This document shows positions 2,862 through 11,595 of a stretch of 14,055 nucleotides of DNA, in pieces (positions within the stretch are counted from its first letter, which is position 1; each line of letters starts with the position of its first letter). Below the pieces are notes generated by a model. That model saw only the letters and a program-made list of their open reading frames with translations. It searched no databases and was not told where the DNA came from. The translations under genes and the position numbers were made by a program. Origin of the DNA: a bacterium (GTDB lineage: Bacteria > UBP7 > UBA6624); NCBI GenBank assembly GCA_014384545.1, contig JACNFQ010000043.1, positions 1 to 14,055 of the forward strand, in the 5' to 3' direction.

Positions 2862-3941
2862 TTACTTGTTCCGACGGCGCAAGAAAAACCCCAAGGCACC
2901 CAACCCTAAGACACCGAGCCCCGCCATTGCAACGCCCTTGTTCATCCCACCACAGGGATTACAAGGGTTTTTAGGTGCACACGGGTTGCAAGGGTTCTTG
3001 GGTGCACACGGGTTACAGGGATTCTTGGGTGCACAAGGATTGCAGGGGTTGCAAGGGTTTGTAGGTGCACACGGGTTACAGGGATTCTTGGGTGCACAAG
3101 GATTGCAGGGGTTGCAAGGGTTTGTAGGTGCACACGGGTTACAGGGATTCTTGGGTGCACAAGGATTGCAGGGGTTGCAAGGGTTTTTGGGTGCACACGG
3201 GTTCATCCCACCACAGGGATTACAAGGGTTCATCCCTCCTCCGTGTCTGTCTGGTGGCATTTCGGCTCCTGAAATCGAGTAGGTGTAATACGCATTCAAT
3301 GCCGTCAATCGTTCGTCGTCCCAAGCGAAGGGCTTTGTCGCCATTGGGGTCACCATACAGAAATTTATCATTTGATCCAAAGAAACAACCCTGTCGGGCA
3401 TCGTCACAAAATGAGGAAAACTCTCCGCAGGGGTCATACTTAGCCCCCCTTGATGGCATGTTTGACATGAAGTACCATTCGAAGAAAGCTCGTTATCATT
3501 CCAAAGAGCATCACCCGCCTCAATGAGAGCAACTAAGTTCTTACCACCTTTGGCCATTCCACCACCACAAGGATTACATGGGTTCATCCCACCACAAGGA
3601 TTACATGGGTTCATCCCACCACAAGGATTACATGGGTTCTTGGAATGGCAGGGGTTTTGAACTGAAATATGAACACCTCTACAAGGGTTTTTGGGTGCAC
3701 ACGGGTTGCAGGGGTTACAGGGATTCTTGGGTGCACACGGGTTGCAAGGGTTTTGGCTTGAGCCACCCTTCGCCCCTTCAGCTTCTGATATCCCACCTGA
3801 AGGCACCATTTCGCCCTCTATCGTTGCCTTGCTTCCCCCGTCAGCGACGACAGCAGCAACCAATGAAGGTCCACCTGTGATGTTCTGGAGTAGTAAGAGC
3901 GTCAAGAACGCCTTTGCCATCTTCCTTTGCTTATTCTTCAT
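2862..3941 (-). CDS. Monoheme c-type cytochrome with two NPC-repeat arrays and a C-terminal membrane/sorting tail
   Basis: This 359-residue protein has, in order: a signal peptide (1-30); a first Cys-rich array (64-125, 13 Asn-Pro-Cys motifs spaced by APK, HSK or GGM); a class I-like heme domain (about 135-225, CQTCH at 159-163, [16 protein letters not shown] and [10 protein letters not shown]); a second array (238-330, 22 Asn-Pro-Cys motifs); and a tail of GG, a hydrophobic stretch and FFLRRRNK. That tail resembles the GlyGly-CTERM/MYXO-CTERM type of sorting signal. The heme domain is close to that of the 5379-6332 cytochrome and loosely recalls SoxA/TsdA-type cytochromes. ATG-3941 is chosen because AAGGAG lies 6 nt upstream and a signal peptide follows; the open frame upstream to 4457 crosses the divergent gene and is spurious. 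It heads the redox operon. Function of the arrays is unknown: metal binding, disulfide cross-linking or surface attachment are possible. Confidence 0.85.
2992..3180 (-). repeat. Three tandem 63-bp units inside the NPC cytochrome gene
   Basis: Three consecutive 63-bp units (2992-3054, 3055-3117, 3118-3180) each encode 21 residues with five NPC motifs. The last two are identical base for base and the first differs at a few positions near its left end. Further partial copies flank them on both sides. Identity at the DNA level, including silent positions, suggests recent unequal crossing-over or slippage. Confidence 0.9.
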
Positions 3942-3974
3942 TCGATTCTCCTTTCTCCTCAAGGGGAGAATCGT

Positions 3975-3980
3975 ATCGTA
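3975..3980 (-). promoter_or_regulatory. Candidate -10 box for the NPC cytochrome operon
   Basis: On the minus strand the sequence TACGAT (overlapping a second TACGAT) lies 34 bp before the ATG at 3941. No good -35 hexamer is present 17 bp upstream. That is what an activator-dependent class II promoter would show. The predicted start is near 3968. Confidence 0.45.
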
Positions 3981-4001
3981 AGGGTCGGTTTCTTCTCCCT
4001 C

Positions 4002-4017
4002 TGTGACCCATGTCACC
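4002..4017. promoter_or_regulatory. CRP-type operator TGTGA-N6-TCACC
   Basis: The sequence TGTGACCCATGTCACC matches the CRP consensus TGTGA-N6-TCACA at nine of ten positions. It sits in the 109-bp gap between two divergent genes. Its centre lies 41.5 bp from the minus-strand start predicted from the TACGAT box, the classic class II activation position. The neighbouring Crp/Fnr-type regulator has the residues that read TGTGA. It may also act on the divergent DUF3179 gene. Confidence 0.6.
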
Positions 4018-4050
4018 CAACCCATTCCTTCCAGAGACAAGAATCCCCCC

Positions 4051-5382
4051 ATGAATAAGAACGATCCCATCAGGAGAACCATCTCTTTACTTCTGCTCGT
4101 TGTGGGTGGCGTTGGAGCGACTTGGCTCGTTGCCCGATGGATCACTCGCCCCACACCACCACCAGATCTGCCCATCGGTTCAGGGCTTTCTATCGCCCCT
4201 GTACCGATCACTGGTAGAGAAGAACGAGGTTCGTTGACTTCCATGGATACCGAGCCTCCCGGTTTGCTCCCTGGCGAAGAACAGTTGGGAGAGGCTGGCT
4301 GGCCCCGAATAGGAGCACAGTTCCTTGTGGGGCAGGGCGAGCAGTGGCCATTCTCTGCTTTCCCCAACGGGCGGTTTGAATATCGCTCCATCAAAGCTGG
4401 CTCCTTCCTCGGTGGTGGTCCTGGGCGAGACGGTATCCCCTCCATTGACGACCCCACCTACGAAGATATTCCGACCGCGACTCCTAGATATTCAGACCGC
4501 GATCCCGTCGCTGTCCTAACGATAGGAAACGAAACAAGAATTTACCCTCAACAGATCTTGATGTGGCACGAAATTGCCAACGACACCCTCGGAGGAATCC
4601 CCGTTGCTGTGACGTACTGCCCCCTATGTAATGCGACCGTCGCTTTCAAGAGAACACTAGATGGGGTGGTACTGGAATTTGGTGTTTCTGGATACTTACG
4701 AAACAGCGACCTAATCATGTACGACCGTCTCACCGAAAGTTGGTTCCAACAACTGACAGGGGAAGGGATTACAGGAATCTTGACCTCGGCTCGTCTTGAT
4801 CGTCTTCCCGTTCAAGTGATGTCGTACAAGTCCGCAGTCTCTGCCTACCCTGATGCAACCGTTCTTGCCCCCGAAGAGGAACTTGCTAAGTTCTACGGGA
4901 AGAACCCTTATCGGCAATACGACAGTAAAGAGACCGAACCCTTTCTCCTGAATACTCCAGCAGGAGAAAGTTATGGAGATGCCCTTCCCCCCAAAGCCCG
5001 GATCTTGGTGGTGGAAGAGCCCGGTTTTGAGACGTTGCCCGTCATAGCATTGACCTCTATCAAGAAGAAGGGGCTGATTGTTCATGGGCAAAGCCTAGTC
5101 GTTTATGTGGGGAGCCACGCTTCACCTTTGGACAATACGGTGATTTCTGAAGGGAGAGATGTGATTCAAGCTACGGTTTTTACGCTTCCTGCCGAAGGAA
5201 AATATAAGAAGAAAGGGAGCGAGATATGGGGACCACACGGTGCCCGTTGGGATATCTTCACAGGAAAGCCCCTTACCGAAGGCACACCAGCACTACGCCC
5301 CGCACGCCATGGTCTCTATTTCTGGTTTGCGTGGTCGGCATTCCACCCCGAAGCGACCGTCTTAAAAACGGGCTGGTTCTAG
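4051..5382 (+). CDS. DUF3179 domain-containing membrane-anchored protein
   Basis: The 443-residue product has an N-terminal signal anchor (about residues 9-30) followed by a Pro-rich linker. The DUF3179 domain extends from about residue 110 to the end. Family landmarks are [55 protein letters not shown] (CxxC-type pair C190/C193), a second half with [13 protein letters not shown], and [17 protein letters not shown]. The biochemical role of DUF3179 is not known to me; the conserved YCPLC suggests a redox or metal site on the outer face of the membrane. ATG-4051 is preferred over GTG-4003 because the signal anchor follows directly and GTG-4003 lies in the operator. No strong Shine-Dalgarno is visible. 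It is divergent from the NPC cytochrome and convergent with the second cytochrome, so functional association with both is plausible. Confidence 0.88.
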
Positions 5383-6332
5383 TCCTTCGTTTCGTAGTGC
5401 AAGGTAATGGTAAACGCCCCATTTACCTCTCCATTTGCACCCGCCACACCGATCAAGACGTTGTAGGAATTGCGAATAGCGACGAGGGCAGGCGTCTCTT
5501 CGGATTGTCCGGGATTGCTGTCGGTTTTGTAGTCATACCCCGCCTCGCAAGAGACCGCCCGAAAGATACTTGGAGGGATGTCGTGGCTCTCTATCCCAAT
5601 CTGGTAGGCATAGACGCTTACATCAACGCCTGCTTCTGGTTGTACGGCAACGGTCAAAGTGGAATGTGCTTCTTGAGGAACTTCAAGAGAGTAGAAAACG
5701 TGACTGCCCGAGAAATTCTCGTTCTCAGTTCCTGGCCAGCACGCTATGGAACTGTTGTCTGCCCAATCCAAATCAATCCTTGCCCCGTGGGAGAGGTTTC
5801 CTGAAAGGGTGGCACCATCCTTGGCGGGTAGAAGTGTCACTTGATCTGTCCAACCAGCGTGAGAACCGGGCATCCCTCCACAAGGATTGGCACTCTCTTC
5901 TTCACCAGGCATTGCTCGTTGCTCTAGGGCATATGTATAGTAAGCATTAAGGGCAGTAAGGCGGCTATCAGCCCAGCCCAACGGCTCGGCAGACATCGGT
6001 ATGGTCATACAGATATTGATCATCTGGTCTAGGGTCACGATCCGATTATGCATCTCCACATTATGGGGGAACGGAACCGTGGTGTTTAAGTTGGCACCAT
6101 GGGCATGACAGCTATTACAAGCCAGACCATTCGTTGAGAGGGAGCTATCTTTCCACAACGTCTCTCCCTGTTCAATAAGAGAGTCCATCTCTTCCCTTTC
6201 TTCGGAGTAGGAGGAACAAGGGTTCATCCCACCACTTTGAAGGGGTAACCCGCTCCCTTCCCAAACGAAAAAGAGACCAGCCACAACAAGAAACCCTACC
6301 CCTAAACTAAATCTCATTCCCTTCTTTCTCAT
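5379..6332 (-). CDS. Monoheme c-type cytochrome with C-terminal beta-sandwich domain, paralogue of the NPC cytochrome
   Basis: This 317-residue protein has an N-terminal signal or anchor (about 6-25), then a heme domain (about 50-140) with CNSCH at 72-76, RIVTLDQMINICMTIPM and [12 protein letters not shown]. These match the NPC cytochrome heme domain almost segment by segment. Single NPC motifs remain at residues 37-39 and 149-151, exactly where the paralogue carries its two large arrays. Residues about 170-317 form a heme-free domain with alternating beta strands (HVFYSLEVP, VDVSVYAYQIG, NVLIGVAGA, FTITLHYE) resembling pre-peptidase C-terminal (PPC) domains. ATG-6332 is chosen because it has AAGGGGG upstream and is followed by a basic signal sequence. 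The 5' leader is only 12 nt from the tRNA-Ser CCA end. Its stop shares CTAG with the DUF3179 gene. Confidence 0.87.
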   Translation of the reverse strand: MRKKGMRFSLGVGFLVVAGLFFVWEGSGLPLQSGGMNPCSSYSEEREEMDSLIEQGETLWKDSSLSTNGLACNSCHAHGANLNTTVPFPHNVEMHNRIVTLDQMINICMTIPMSAEPLGWADSRLTALNAYYTYALEQRAMPGEEESANPCGGMPGSHAGWTDQVTLLPAKDGATLSGNLSHGARIDLDWADNSSIACWPGTENENFSGSHVFYSLEVPQEAHSTLTVAVQPEAGVDVSVYAYQIGIESHDIPPSIFRAVSCEAGYDYKTDSNPGQSEETPALVAIRNSYNVLIGVAGANGEVNGAFTITLHYETKD

Positions 6333-6344
6333 AAGACCCCCTTT

Positions 6345-6431
6345 TGGCGGAGAGCAGAGGAATTGCACCCCATCCGATTCGGACGCACGGTTTTCAAGAC
6401 CGGCCCGGCACGCTCGTCCGGTTTACTCTCC
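6345..6431 (-). tRNA. tRNA-Ser (anticodon TGA), with encoded CCA and atypical elbow
   Basis: On the minus strand a 7-bp acceptor stem (GGAGAGT with GCTCTCC, one T-G pair), discriminator G and encoded CCA enclose a cloverleaf. Its anticodon loop CTTGAAA gives anticodon TGA (reads UCA), and the long variable arm (TCCG-AAT-CGGA) is typical of serine tRNAs. The D loop (ACGAGCGTG) lacks the usual GG, position 8 is not T, and the T loop reads TGCAATT rather than TTCRANY. The gene overlaps the last 9 bases of recO. It may be a functional divergent tRNA or a decaying copy; intact stems and CCA favour function. Confidence 0.75.
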
Positions 6432-7079
6432 CCATTGGGGGGATTCTAGGAAACGGTTGGGTACGATTCCGCTCAATCCTGTCCCCACCACATCTCTCCA
6501 TCTTCCTACAAAATCCCTATACCAACCCTCTAACGCAACTTCTGGCCATTCCCAACCCATAAGTTCCTGTGGGGACGCCTGTAGGAGTTGGTCTTGGATT
6601 TCCCCTTCGCGACCCTCTCTATGGGGCAACCATCCCCCTGCATGCAACAGACGAAACCCCACGCCCAAACCGAACAGGGGAGGAGGGGCCTCCAACTGGG
6701 CTCCCCTCTCAAAAAACTTGAAGAGATGCGGATGGCTCTCGCCCTCTGGAATAGCGTCAACAACCAAGCGTAAACCGCTTAGCACAGCGATTGCTGTCTT
6801 TGGCTCTCTCTTGATATCAATATGAGCATCTAACAGGTTTGCCATTCTCAGGCGACGGATACCTGTGCGACCCTCAATCCACTCCACCTCCAATAGGTTC
6901 AGGGGGTCAAATCGTCCTGTCCACTTGCTCTTACTCGATGACGCACCCGCCACAAAGAAAGAGAGGGGACCTTTCTCTTCAAGGAAGAGTGTTACCCATC
7001 GGGCACCCCGCCCCGCAAGGCGTGTCGTAACGACGAGCGCTTTAGCTTTCGTCGTCGTTTCTGGGTAAGTCAGACTCAT
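6423..7079 (-). CDS. recO: RecO-like DNA repair protein
   Basis: The 218-residue protein resembles RecO, which acts with RecF and RecR to load RecA onto SSB-coated gaps and anneals single strands. The N-terminal OB-fold pattern is visible: KALVVTTRLAGRGARWVTLFLEEKGPLSFFVAGASSSKSKWTGRFDPLNLLEVEW, followed by LRMANLLDAH and a helical remainder. It has no cysteines, so the zinc-finger Cys cluster found in many RecO proteins is absent. The family is called from the N-terminus; the C-terminal half is divergent. The start overlaps the PUR-protein gene by 38 bp, which implies translational coupling or an alternative downstream start. The final codons GGA GAG TAA are also the first nine bases of tRNA-Ser, so 5' maturation of the tRNA would remove the stop codon from the mRNA. 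Confidence 0.78.
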   Translation of the reverse strand: MSLTYPETTTKAKALVVTTRLAGRGARWVTLFLEEKGPLSFFVAGASSSKSKWTGRFDPLNLLEVEWIEGRTGIRRLRMANLLDAHIDIKREPKTAIAVLSGLRLVVDAIPEGESHPHLFKFFERGAQLEAPPPLFGLGVGFRLLHAGGWLPHREGREGEIQDQLLQASPQELMGWEWPEVALEGWYRDFVGRWRDVVGTGLSGIVPNRFLESPQWGE

Positions 7080-7423: not shown

Positions 7424-8092
7424 CTAGCAAATCTCCAGAATGTCAAGCACCTTGTCGGTTTCAGAGAGATTCTCAAGAATGACATCTGGGTTTGATTCCA
7501 CCAATCTACTATGTGCATAAGGGGGTCCAGTTAGCACCCCTAATGAATGGGCACCGTGCGCTTTGGCAACTTCGACATCCCGATAGGTGTCCCCCACAAC
7601 CCATATAGGACCATGACCATCCCATCCGCTTCGTTTAGCCCTAGCAATCGCTACGGGAAAAAGCTCTTCTCGCGTTTCCCCATCATCTGCCCAAGCTCCC
7701 CAAGTAAATGCCCCTTTTAACCCAAAGTGATTCAGTTTCATTTGACCCGTTCTCTCCCAATTACCGGTAAGAAGACCAAAGGAGATTCCCAAGACCTCCA
7801 ACCGCTTTATGAGGATCCTTACGCCAGGTAGGACTTTCCCCTTTGATGCGACCAGTGCACGGGGCATTTCCAGAAGGACTTTTCGCTTGAAGATCGACTC
7901 GTTCTTCTTGCTAACCACTCCACCAGCACCCTCAATCCACATTCGGGCGTTCTCTCCATCTAATCTCCCCGCAAAATCAATATCTCCACCACCCTGTCCA
8001 AAAAGAGAGTGTGCTGCCCGTTCAAAGGCATGCACGCCAGCAGCGCCCGACAAGAGCAACGTACCATCTATATCGAAGAGAACGAGGGTCAA
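7424..8092 (-). CDS. HAD-superfamily hydrolase (phosphatase-like)
   Basis: All four HAD motifs are visible in this 222-residue protein: motif I FDIDGTLL (nucleophile D7 and acid D9), motif II LLTGNW, motif III Lys within ARAKRSG, and motif IV VVGDTYRDVEVA. A helical cap of subfamily I type lies between motifs I and II. This layout fits phosphoglycolate-phosphatase-like enzymes acting on small phosphorylated metabolites. The substrate cannot be told from sequence. The start is TTG, and TTGA overlaps the stop of the M14 carboxypeptidase gene, indicating translational coupling. It is cytosolic (no signal peptide), unlike the secreted peptidase before it, so the operon mixes functions. Confidence 0.88.
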   Translation of the reverse strand: MTLVLFDIDGTLLLSGAAGVHAFERAAHSLFGQGGGDIDFAGRLDGENARMWIEGAGGVVSKKNESIFKRKVLLEMPRALVASKGKVLPGVRILIKRLEVLGISFGLLTGNWERTGQMKLNHFGLKGAFTWGAWADDGETREELFPVAIARAKRSGWDGHGPIWVVGDTYRDVEVAKAHGAHSLGVLTGPPYAHSRLVESNPDVILENLSETDKVLDILEIC

Positions 8093-9816
8093 CGACGAGG
8101 GAGTTGAATCTCTTGGGTAGCCGAGCCACCTTTTTCACTGTCCAGAACGATAACCAACGCATCCCCTCGGCTTGCTCTTACCAATAGAACGATCCATCGG
8201 CGAGCCATCGGTCCCAAGTTGCCCACCTGTGCCTCGCCCTCAATGGGGGTTTCATGAGGATTGGTGACGAAAGTGCCACCCCCCCTTGAATCAAGTTCCC
8301 GTTCGCCCGATGCCACCAACTCGCCCCCCAGTACGGTAAGTCTCTCTTCTTTCGCTATTCCTACTCGTCTTGCCTGCCCCGATGCCGTAGGCATCTCACC
8401 TAGATTCAGGATCTCCACCTCCACTTGCCACAATCCCCTCTCCAATCGCGTCGCCGTCGTCTTGCCCAAAGCAACTTGGGGCATAAAGGAGGCATGAAGA
8501 AGGGTAAAAAGAGTGTTCCTCATAGCCATCTCTGGCAGTTCATCTGGCAAGGGTGCCCGGGTACAAAATGCCCGCCACCCCCCAATTTCAATCCACCCCA
8601 AGTCGGGATGTTCAAACTCTTCCCAGTCTGAAAAACAAGCACCGTGCGCCACTTCGTCATTCCACCGCATCCTCTCTTCTTGGCTAGAAACGCCATCGTC
8701 GTCGTAGTCAGGGTTAAAGGCATAGAGTTCGTTAGTAAAAGAGATAATCCCTAATGCACCATATGTCCAATCAAAGAACCCCCCATGGACGGGATATAGA
8801 CCCCCAAAAACCTCAAGGTATTCATAATCGGGAAGGAATGCCTTAGAGCGTTCAGCAATCCCATCCATCACCCGCAAATCCGACCGCGGCATCCCCATGC
8901 TAGAGGTGCTTTCTGCGCCCGGGGGTCGCAGAATCATATCGCCAGCATTGTGGTAACTTTGCACAGCAGCTATGTTGGGATGGTTCCTAACGAAGTTAGC
9001 GGTACTCCTCGTTTCGGGCTCCGACAACATATAGGGACCTGCACCATGCTGTCTGTGGTCGGGCGACCACTCCCAAGGAAACTGACGGTTAAGATCTACA
9101 CCTCCTGGTCCATCCTCATTAATCCTCCCGTCCCCGTCATTATCAATACCTTCGGTCCACCACGTCTTCCACCCCCCCTCTTCCCCAGGCCGTCTACCCC
9201 TCATTGTGCGGGGGTCTTCTCCTAAAACCATACTCCCCAAGGGGTCAATACGCCTCATCATGGTGATTTCCCCATCGCCGTTTAGATCTTCTGGTCCATC
9301 CTCATCAACGGAACCGTCGCCATCATTATCATGGGGCCGTTGGTTCTGCCTTGGAGAATGTGGATTGTTTGCCTCGTGGAAAAACCGATGGCGACTATCT
9401 GGATTTACAGTGGGTGCAATATAGAACGAAAAGCGGTTCAATAAGTCTGTTACCCAGGGATCTTGTCCGAATTTCGTAACGAGATAATTGATCGTAAAAA
9501 GGGCGACTTCTCCCCCTTGAATCTCGTTGCCGTGTGTATTGGCATCAATATACATTGCGGGTTTCGTTGAAGCGTCTCCCGTTTCAGGATTGTTGACCGT
9601 CATCACCCATAGCTCTCGCCCCTCTCGACTTTGCCCCATCGTCCCTAACGAAAGAAGGTTGGGGTAGGCAGCCTCTAACGCTGCTAATGCCTCGCCCATC
9701 TCCTCAACATCGTAGTATCGATTAAAGGACAGAGCAACCAAGGGATTGATGGCGGGAGGAGCATTTCCACCAAGAAAGAGAAGGGATAAAACAAGAGCGG
9801 TTTGAACCTGTTTCAT
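8089..9816 (-). CDS. Secreted M14-family zinc carboxypeptidase with Asp-rich calcium-type inserts
   Basis: This 575-residue protein has an N-terminal signal peptide (about 1-20) and an M14 catalytic domain (about 33-400). Its residues are intact: zinc ligands H95 and E98 in ANTHGNE, N243/R244 in VDLNRQFP for the substrate carboxylate, third ligand H289 in QSYHNAGD, and catalytic E363 in SFTNELYAF. Between the first and second halves are Asp-rich loops NDGDGSVDEDGPEDLNGDGEIT (split here as three short DxDxDG-type runs at 163-184) and DNDGDGRINEDG near 225-236, probable calcium sites seen in some large M14 proteins. The C-terminal ~130 residues form a beta-rich domain. M14 enzymes remove C-terminal residues from peptides or cell-wall stems. 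ATGA overlaps the stop of its inactive paralogue upstream. Confidence 0.92.
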   Translation of the reverse strand: MKQVQTALVLSLLFLGGNAPPAINPLVALSFNRYYDVEEMGEALAALEAAYPNLLSLGTMGQSREGRELWVMTVNNPETGDASTKPAMYIDANTHGNEIQGGEVALFTINYLVTKFGQDPWVTDLLNRFSFYIAPTVNPDSRHRFFHEANNPHSPRQNQRPHDNDGDGSVDEDGPEDLNGDGEITMMRRIDPLGSMVLGEDPRTMRGRRPGEEGGWKTWWTEGIDNDGDGRINEDGPGGVDLNRQFPWEWSPDHRQHGAGPYMLSEPETRSTANFVRNHPNIAAVQSYHNAGDMILRPPGAESTSSMGMPRSDLRVMDGIAERSKAFLPDYEYLEVFGGLYPVHGGFFDWTYGALGIISFTNELYAFNPDYDDDGVSSQEERMRWNDEVAHGACFSDWEEFEHPDLGWIEIGGWRAFCTRAPLPDELPEMAMRNTLFTLLHASFMPQVALGKTTATRLERGLWQVEVEILNLGEMPTASGQARRVGIAKEERLTVLGGELVASGERELDSRGGGTFVTNPHETPIEGEAQVGNLGPMARRWIVLLVRASRGDALVIVLDSEKGGSATQEIQLPRR

Positions 9817-11489
9817 TCGCCAACCTCCGAGAGAGAGATCTCGATGGGTTCAGAAAAGGAGCGGGGGTGAAAGGGCGCCACCCCTAGAACCCCCCTTCCC
9901 GATACAATCCAAGTAAACTCCTTGGATTCTCCTGGCTTTAAGAGCCCCAGGTTAATATGAGGCTCGCCCATGACCAAACGGAACTTCCCTTCAGGAAAGT
10001 CCACCCTCACAGGGGTTGATTCACGAATGCTTGCGGCTATTTCTGGGTCGGTTGCCAACAGCCCATCATTCCAAACCCTAATCTCTAGCCTAACGGTCTC
10101 TTTGCCCAACCTAACACCCTTTTCAATGGCGACTTGAAGCGTAGGAACCATCTGGGGAAGGGAGAGAACCCATGGTGTCAAGATACCGTTCAAGTTCTCT
10201 TCGTAGGGCATGCGGTTCCGTCCAAACCGAGGCCAGCCCCTAGCCTCCATTCCGTCTTTGCTACTCCCCTCTGTCCAAGGAATCTCTCCATATCTCTCAA
10301 CCCATTCCTCGTCCTTGATTTGGTGCCACGGCGTGGGAAATCTCTCCGATTCATCCTCTTCTTCCTCAACATCTATCGGCTCACCTGTCGCTTCTTCCGC
10401 CTCTTTGACAGAGGTGATCACAGGAAGAGTCCATAACCCGGGCATCACTGCCCAACGGCCCAATCCAGCATAAGCCCAGTCAAGGAATGTCCCCCTGTCA
10501 GACCAAAATGAGGGGCCCTCCTTTGCCTGGAAAACAGAGTTATAGGGCGTTAGCTCTATAAAGGGTTTTCCAATTGCCTCAAACGCTTTCTTATCCCCAT
10601 CGGGTAGTTTTTCGCCTCCCTCATCCCGTAGAGGGAAGGCTAACCCTCCACCCAAGTCGCGCACGACAATAACGAATACGATTTCTGGATGTTCTAGCAA
10701 AAAGTCCACAGTCGCCCTCACTTCAGGCTCGCTTGCAGCAAAAGGTCCACCACCACCCACTTCTTGATCTCTTGCCCACCGGTAAGGGAAATTCCGATCG
10801 GGGGCAATGCCACCCACGCCATCCTCGGCAAAGACCCCATCTCCATCCTTGTCCGCCCCCTCACGATCCCAAACCGTCCACCCACCCTCTTCACCCGCCA
10901 CGAAATCGGCTTGAACCATGTGGGCATACCCTTCTTCTGCATCTTCTTCTCGCCACTTTCCCCACGGCTCTTTTCGTCTCATTTCGCCAATCACACCATC
11001 CCCATTTATGTCAAATGGGGGGTCCTCATCCACACGGCCATCTCCATCATCATCCCAAGGGACGCCATTCCAAGGAAAACTTTCAGGCCAAATCCACTTG
11101 TTCGTATAGAAAGGTCCTTCAAAATCTCTGAACAACCTCAGCCCCGATGGATTAAGAGAGGGCAGGACAACGAGGGAAAGTCGAGAAAAGAATGTCGTTA
11201 TCTCATCATCTCCCTCACCATATCCGAGTCGCAATGCTGAAACGAGGCTGTTTAGCAGTTGAACTGATTCTTCTTCGCCCCCACCTAACCCACCCACAAT
11301 CAGAACCGTGGGTCGATTCATGGGTGCACCTGGTTCTTGCAACCAAAAGAGAGGGAGCTCATCTCCCAGTGTCGTTGTTACCAGAGTTTCACGCTTGACG
11401 ATATTGGGTGCCTCATCCTCACTTCCGTTTTCAGAAAGAAAGAGAAGGGTCGTCCAGGCAATAGCAACAAGGGTAATCATGCCCTCCAT
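9813..11489 (-). CDS. Catalytically inactive M14 carboxypeptidase paralogue
   Basis: The 558-residue product aligns along its length with the neighbouring M14 enzyme, including WDDDGDGRVDEDPPFDINGDG, KDGDGVFAEDGVGG, DRNFPYRW, FLDWAYAGLG and a beta-rich C-terminal domain. The active site is lost: HGNE is replaced by GGLGGGEEE (His gone), DLNR by APDR, the third zinc ligand QSYHN by IVVRD, and the catalytic Glu of TNELY by PGLWT. It also has an extra acidic segment (DVEEEEDESE). A hydrophobic N-terminus suggests export. The start is uncertain: ATG-11489 has GGATGGGG upstream, with ATG-11480 and GTG-11537 as alternatives. The gene is coupled by ATGA to the active enzyme, suggesting the two partner, the inactive one perhaps as scaffold or substrate binder. 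Confidence 0.85.
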   Translation of the reverse strand: MEGMITLVAIAWTTLLFLSENGSEDEAPNIVKRETLVTTTLGDELPLFWLQEPGAPMNRPTVLIVGGLGGGEEESVQLLNSLVSALRLGYGEGDDEITTFFSRLSLVVLPSLNPSGLRLFRDFEGPFYTNKWIWPESFPWNGVPWDDDGDGRVDEDPPFDINGDGVIGEMRRKEPWGKWREEDAEEGYAHMVQADFVAGEEGGWTVWDREGADKDGDGVFAEDGVGGIAPDRNFPYRWARDQEVGGGGPFAASEPEVRATVDFLLEHPEIVFVIVVRDLGGGLAFPLRDEGGEKLPDGDKKAFEAIGKPFIELTPYNSVFQAKEGPSFWSDRGTFLDWAYAGLGRWAVMPGLWTLPVITSVKEAEEATGEPIDVEEEEDESERFPTPWHQIKDEEWVERYGEIPWTEGSSKDGMEARGWPRFGRNRMPYEENLNGILTPWVLSLPQMVPTLQVAIEKGVRLGKETVRLEIRVWNDGLLATDPEIAASIRESTPVRVDFPEGKFRLVMGEPHINLGLLKPGESKEFTWIVSGRGVLGVAPFHPRSFSEPIEISLSEVGE

Positions 11490-11595
11490 CCTAACCCCAT
11501 CCAGAATACGCTCTGTCCCGTGCATATGGGTCACCACAGGAACCCGTTAAGTCGGGTGGTTGTGGCACTCCCACATATGGCATTCCCTCCCAATC

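Follow-up and report, generated by a model that had tools for sequence, protein, structure and literature searches.

A CRP-type palindrome between divergent cytochrome and DUF3179 genes as a candidate shared site for a Crp-family regulator encoded in the cytochrome operon

The window, by which the whole stretch of 14,055 nucleotides that was analysed is meant, carries a series of minus-strand genes facing away from a plus-strand gene across a short gap. The first gene of the series (2862-3941, minus) encodes a SoxA/TsdA-type cytochrome c domain (CQTCH) set within NPC/Cys-rich repeats, with a signal-peptide-like start, a C-terminal hydrophobic anchor and a Shine-Dalgarno sequence (AAAGGAG) before its ATG. 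It is followed on the same strand by genes for a multiheme c-type cytochrome with MtrC/MtrF-like and cytochrome c7/c554 domains (1672-2829), a Crp/Fnr-family regulator (988-1653), a DoxX-family membrane protein (408-977) and a PqqB-like protein of the metallo-beta-lactamase fold that is truncated at the window edge (3-341). The first four genes are separated by gaps of 32, 18 and 10 bp in which no terminator-like sites were found, so that cotranscription of the cytochrome, multiheme cytochrome, regulator and DoxX genes is likely; the PqqB-like gene, 66 bp from the DoxX gene, may also, and probably does, form part of the operon. The presence of a gene for a Crp-like protein in this operon agrees with an initial annotation of the locus.

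The divergent gene (4051-5382, plus) encodes a membrane-anchored DUF3179 protein (E 2.6e-80) and is flanked by two SoxA/TsdA-type cytochrome genes, 2862-3941 and 5379-6326, both on the minus strand. The former contains long NPC/CAPKNPC repeats, with DNA tandem repeats of 27, 36 and 63 bp around and after the heme domain, and the latter has neither the NPC repeats nor a CRP-type site.

The ATG codons of the cytochrome (minus, 3941) and of DUF3179 (plus, 4051) border a 109-bp gap, which holds the CRP-type palindrome TGTGACCCATGTCACC at 4002-4017 (centre 4009.5), read on the minus strand as GGTGACATGGGTCACA. The CRP consensus is TGTGA-N6-TCACA, and TGTGACCCATGTCACC, present as the TGTGA-N6-TCACC site that the initial annotation described, is the best match to it in the window, with one mismatch. 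The palindrome itself is real. With up to two mismatches allowed, the window contains 3 matches compared to 5.4 in shuffles, which is fewer than expected by chance, so the count is no evidence and the case depends on where the site lies. A match with at most one mismatch falls inside such a divergent gap with a probability of 0.0019, as estimated from simulated gaps of the same composition under a first-order Markov model.

In the class II register, 29.5 bp separate the dyad and the −10 element's first base, which places a CRP dimer at −41.5. The predicted −10 element of the cytochrome operon, TACGAT (3975-3980, minus), has its first base exactly 29.5 bp from the dyad, and a predicted start at about 3968 puts the dyad at −41.5. 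This was the position given in the initial annotation; the spacing stands, whilst the figure of −41.5 depends both on a predicted start and on the choice of TACGAT copy, the motif being one of an overlapping pair, TACGATACGAT, whose second copy (3975-3970, minus) would move the site to about −46.5. The poor −35 region that had also been claimed is borne out, in that a promoter search found no conventional promoter in the site region and the best −35-like hexamer by eye, GTCACA at a spacing of 18 bp, belongs to the palindrome.

The initial annotation saw the cytochrome side and missed an equal spacing towards DUF3179, where the first base of a predicted −10-like hexamer, AAGAAT (4039-4044, plus), lies at the same 29.5 bp on the opposite side of the dyad. 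From AAGAAT, transcription would begin at 4051, on the A of the DUF3179 ATG, to give a leaderless transcript, and no Shine-Dalgarno-like 4-mer was found upstream of that codon. As a −10 element AAGAAT is weak, and leaderless initiation at DUF3179 is a guess; a longer DUF3179 protein starting from the GTG at 4003, within the palindrome, appears unlikely. With these predicted −10 elements, a dyad 29.5 bp upstream of the −10 and the lack of a good −35 are found on both strands.

Elsewhere in the genome stretches, 38,806 positions, most of them noncoding, included none with hexamers at both exact 29.5-bp distances, a comparison in which the hexamer rule is the promoter tool's own, 'noncoding' rests on crude coding calls and the two-sided test was conceived after the sequence had been seen. 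In simulated gaps, the combination of the site with at least one −10-like hexamer in the exact class II register appeared in 0.002%, and the site with hexamers on both sides in 0 of 200,000.

The protein encoded at 988-1653 belongs to the Crp/Fnr superfamily, with matches to PF00027 (E 2.4e-9), PF13545 (E 8.4e-11) and PF00325 (E 4.1e-7), and no other protein with a cNMP-binding domain was found in the assembly (1.39 Mb, 79% complete). In FNR, four cysteines, most of them near the N-terminus, ligate a [4Fe-4S] cluster; the regulator has only two (C104 and C115), neither of them near the N-terminus, and is therefore not of the FNR type. Aligned with E. coli CRP (ASREATSRAL with CSRETVGRIL), it retains R180, E181 and R185, the residues that read TGTGA. 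The cAMP contacts of CRP proper, in contrast, are gone: R82 and S83, the Arg-Ser pair, are replaced (R82K, S83D), as are E72 (E72Q), T127 (T127V) and S128 (S128E), so that all five contacts checked, as listed in PMC11253593, are lost. Both residue claims of the initial annotation, the kept RE...R and the missing Arg-Ser, are thus upheld.

These replacements make it highly improbable that the locus is a canonical cAMP-CRP circuit run by an ordinary, cAMP-responsive CRP ortholog. The CRP model is indeed the best NCBIfam match (E 2e-13), the solved structures closest to the protein in sequence are those of Crp-family members, several of which bind cAMP, and the site follows CRP's own TGTGA-N6-TCACA; however, the NCBIfam match reaches 50 of 266 bits and so falls far under the curated cut-off. 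The loss of cAMP contacts does not prove a different ligand, and with it the different signal that the initial annotation predicted, since DdrI and TTHB099 bind DNA without cAMP (PMC11253593, PMC7662524). A single-sequence AlphaFold2 model of the regulator (mean pLDDT 37) was set aside, and a search for its homologues in viral contigs gave nothing.

A wider regulon was sought by pattern searches of the genome. Among 17 spacings (0-16) of TGTGA-Nx-TCAC, N6 was the commonest, with 9 matches where the other spacings average 2.9 (Poisson 0.003, or 0.011 with the fully palindromic site counted once). Part of this N6 count is coding, since one match (L174; G000 contig 68, 9791-9805) is the codon run TGT GAG GCG TGT CAC for the CEACH heme motif of a multiheme cytochrome gene. 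Codons for C-[DE]-x-C-H can spell TGTGA-N6-TCAC, and CRP-site scans near heme proteins are consequently contaminated with false matches. The palindrome in the window was considered as such a heme codon run and rejected, its plus-strand CDPCH frame lying in no cytochrome gene. Sites with one mismatch number 30 genome-wide, and most are within genes, which gives no indication that the regulon is large; the further sites before other cytochrome genes towards which the initial annotation had looked were not found in the genome scan.

A stricter pattern, GTGAY-N4-RTCAC, which was chosen post hoc after the sequence had been seen, has five sites in the genome. Three are found no more than about 60 bp before a start codon, one each at the cytochrome operon, at a gene for a thioredoxin-like membrane protein (C91, L180) and at a subtilase gene (C17, L154). 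At the thioredoxin-like gene, the site is centred 41.5 bp from the ATG, TAGTGT occupies the class II position, and GAAAC and TTA are common to this promoter and the cytochrome promoter in the same register. The same architecture at a second gene, together with the regulator being the sole cNMP-binding-domain protein in the genome, strengthens the reading of a local regulator.

It could still be held that the palindrome arose by chance or is the site of another regulator, and that both promoters work by other means. Matches in the window are no more frequent than in shuffles, those in the genome are mostly intragenic, distant clusters (described below) are without the site, and other causes of matches exist, such as the CEACH codons at L174, the window site itself reading CDPCH on the plus strand. 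We nevertheless regard this explanation as rather unlikely, given how rarely a gap would by chance contain both a site and even one −10 at the exact class II distance (2e-5), and given an adjacent operon that holds the genome's only cNMP-binding-domain protein, with fitting recognition residues.

The site at the subtilase lipoprotein gene (L154; G000 contig 17, 8509-8524) is the genome's only perfect TGTGA-N6-TCACA and is located between an upstream TATAAT and the Shine-Dalgarno sequence; binding there, downstream of the TATAAT, would repress. The repressing position of the one perfect palindrome is in keeping with a regulator that binds in the window but mainly represses, or that activates in one direction, as the dyad overlaps both −35 regions and could exclude RNA polymerase. 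In engineered E. coli bidirectional promoters, CRP at −40.5 or −60.5 activated transcription one way and blocked it the other way (PMC12825309), and since one direction can block the other, simultaneous activation both ways is not to be assumed. Predominant repression or one-way activation is nonetheless judged unlikely, because, with no usable −35 at either promoter, there should be little basal transcription for a repressor to act on, and because the class II spacing is exact on both sides and recurs at the thioredoxin-like gene.

The preferred reading, for and against which we see the balance as even, is that a single class II site serves a cAMP-independent Crp-family regulator in activating both its own operon and DUF3179. 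The Crp-like product of the third operon gene would use the palindrome at 4002-4017 as its operator, and a dimer bound there would take the place of the −35 element in both directions. By class II activation, RNA polymerase would be recruited to TACGAT (3980-3975) for transcription of the cytochrome, multiheme cytochrome, regulator and DoxX genes, and to AAGAAT (4039-4044) for transcription of the divergent DUF3179 gene, and the regulator would thereby control its own synthesis. Control by cAMP through the contacts used in E. coli would not be expected, and another cue, perhaps redox, or the regulator's own level may set its activity. A fuller version is offered only tentatively and is more doubtful than not: that this is a symmetric class II site serving two divergent promoters, one of them leaderless, under a lineage-specific, non-cAMP Crp-family protein through which genes for extracytoplasmic electron transfer (cytochromes, DUF3179 and the thioredoxin-like protein) would come under local redox regulation.

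The closest comparison is with two genomes of the same family (G001 and G002), in which neither a Crp-family protein nor DUF3179 was found. GTGAY-N4-RTCAC occurs in them at three places, among which L225 (G002) is the same sequence as L228 (G001), and all that were examined are intragenic, which favours the preferred reading. Of 386 genomes searched, 30 others contain relatives of the multiheme cytochrome, which reach 50% identity in other phyla, and a SoxA-type cytochrome adjoins the multiheme cytochrome in 6 of the 20 neighbourhoods read. The cluster promoters examined in these distant neighbourhoods contained no site with one mismatch or fewer; as all but one of the clusters are without an adjacent Crp gene, they neither support nor refute the site. 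DUF3179 loci, 80 of which were compared, share at most 46% identity, which makes them too diverged for promoter comparison, and few have a Crp gene nearby.

In one of these distant clusters (L221; G178 contig 7, 5143-9102, minus), Crp and DUF3179 genes are present instead of a SoxA-type cytochrome gene; they stand in a row with genes for a YceI protein, whose C-terminal tail is NPC-rich, and for the multiheme cytochrome, with a histidine kinase and a response regulator next on the same strand. Its gaps were searched for a TGTGA-type inverted repeat and none was found. The cluster resembled a relative of the operon, but another genome of its family has Crp and DUF3179 15 kb apart, and the Crp of L221 carries Ala at position 185; for these two reasons the cluster cannot serve as a test of the site. 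The NPC-rich tails reappear there on a different protein beside the same cytochrome.

Circuits of this kind are already known. Cmr of Mycobacterium tuberculosis (PMC5499769) is likewise an autoregulated member of the Crp/Fnr family with redox-linked neighbours, one of its sites also activates a divergent gene, and its activation is cAMP-independent; it differs in repressing one promoter of its own gene and activating another, and in that sensing has been demonstrated for it, whereas the regulator described here is the third gene of a cytochrome operon and is known from sequence alone. E. coli CRP activates divergent promoters from one target according to El-Robh and Busby 2002, as cited in PMC5499769. 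Its class II promoters share with the present locus the TGTGA-N6-TCACA site, the centre at −41.5, the lack of a good −35 and the RE...R recognition helix, but the regulator here lacks the cAMP contacts and is a local protein encoded inside its own target operon rather than a global one. DdrI of Deinococcus radiodurans (PMC11253593), also of the Crp family, has its adenine contacts replaced and binds TGTGA-N6-TCACA without cAMP; unlike the regulator, it keeps the equivalents of E72 and R82, has Lys at the 185 position and acts globally. TTHB099 of Thermus thermophilus (PMC7662524), another Crp-family protein, binds DNA without cAMP, and some of its sites are common to two bidirectional promoters, although it prefers TGTA...TACA and has other targets. 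Given Cmr, DdrI and TTHB099 as precedents, a self-regulating switch at the present locus is plausible. If true, it would provide a poorly sampled lineage with a testable regulator, operator and small regulon, and would link the uncharacterised DUF3179 family to cytochromes by common control.

Two further features of the window lie beyond the second cytochrome gene. At 8089-11537 (minus) are two adjacent large ORFs that resemble secreted peptidases of the zinc carboxypeptidase kind, a likeness judged without a library scan, and that contain many Asp-rich, calcium-binding-like repeats. At 6348-6432 (minus) is a probable tRNA-Ser with anticodon UGA and a long variable arm, which was not called by ARAGORN and is below the Rfam gathering score, the best model being tRNA-Sec (35.7 of 47 bits); contrary to tRNA-Sec, the anticodon loop CUUGAAA gives UGA rather than UCA.
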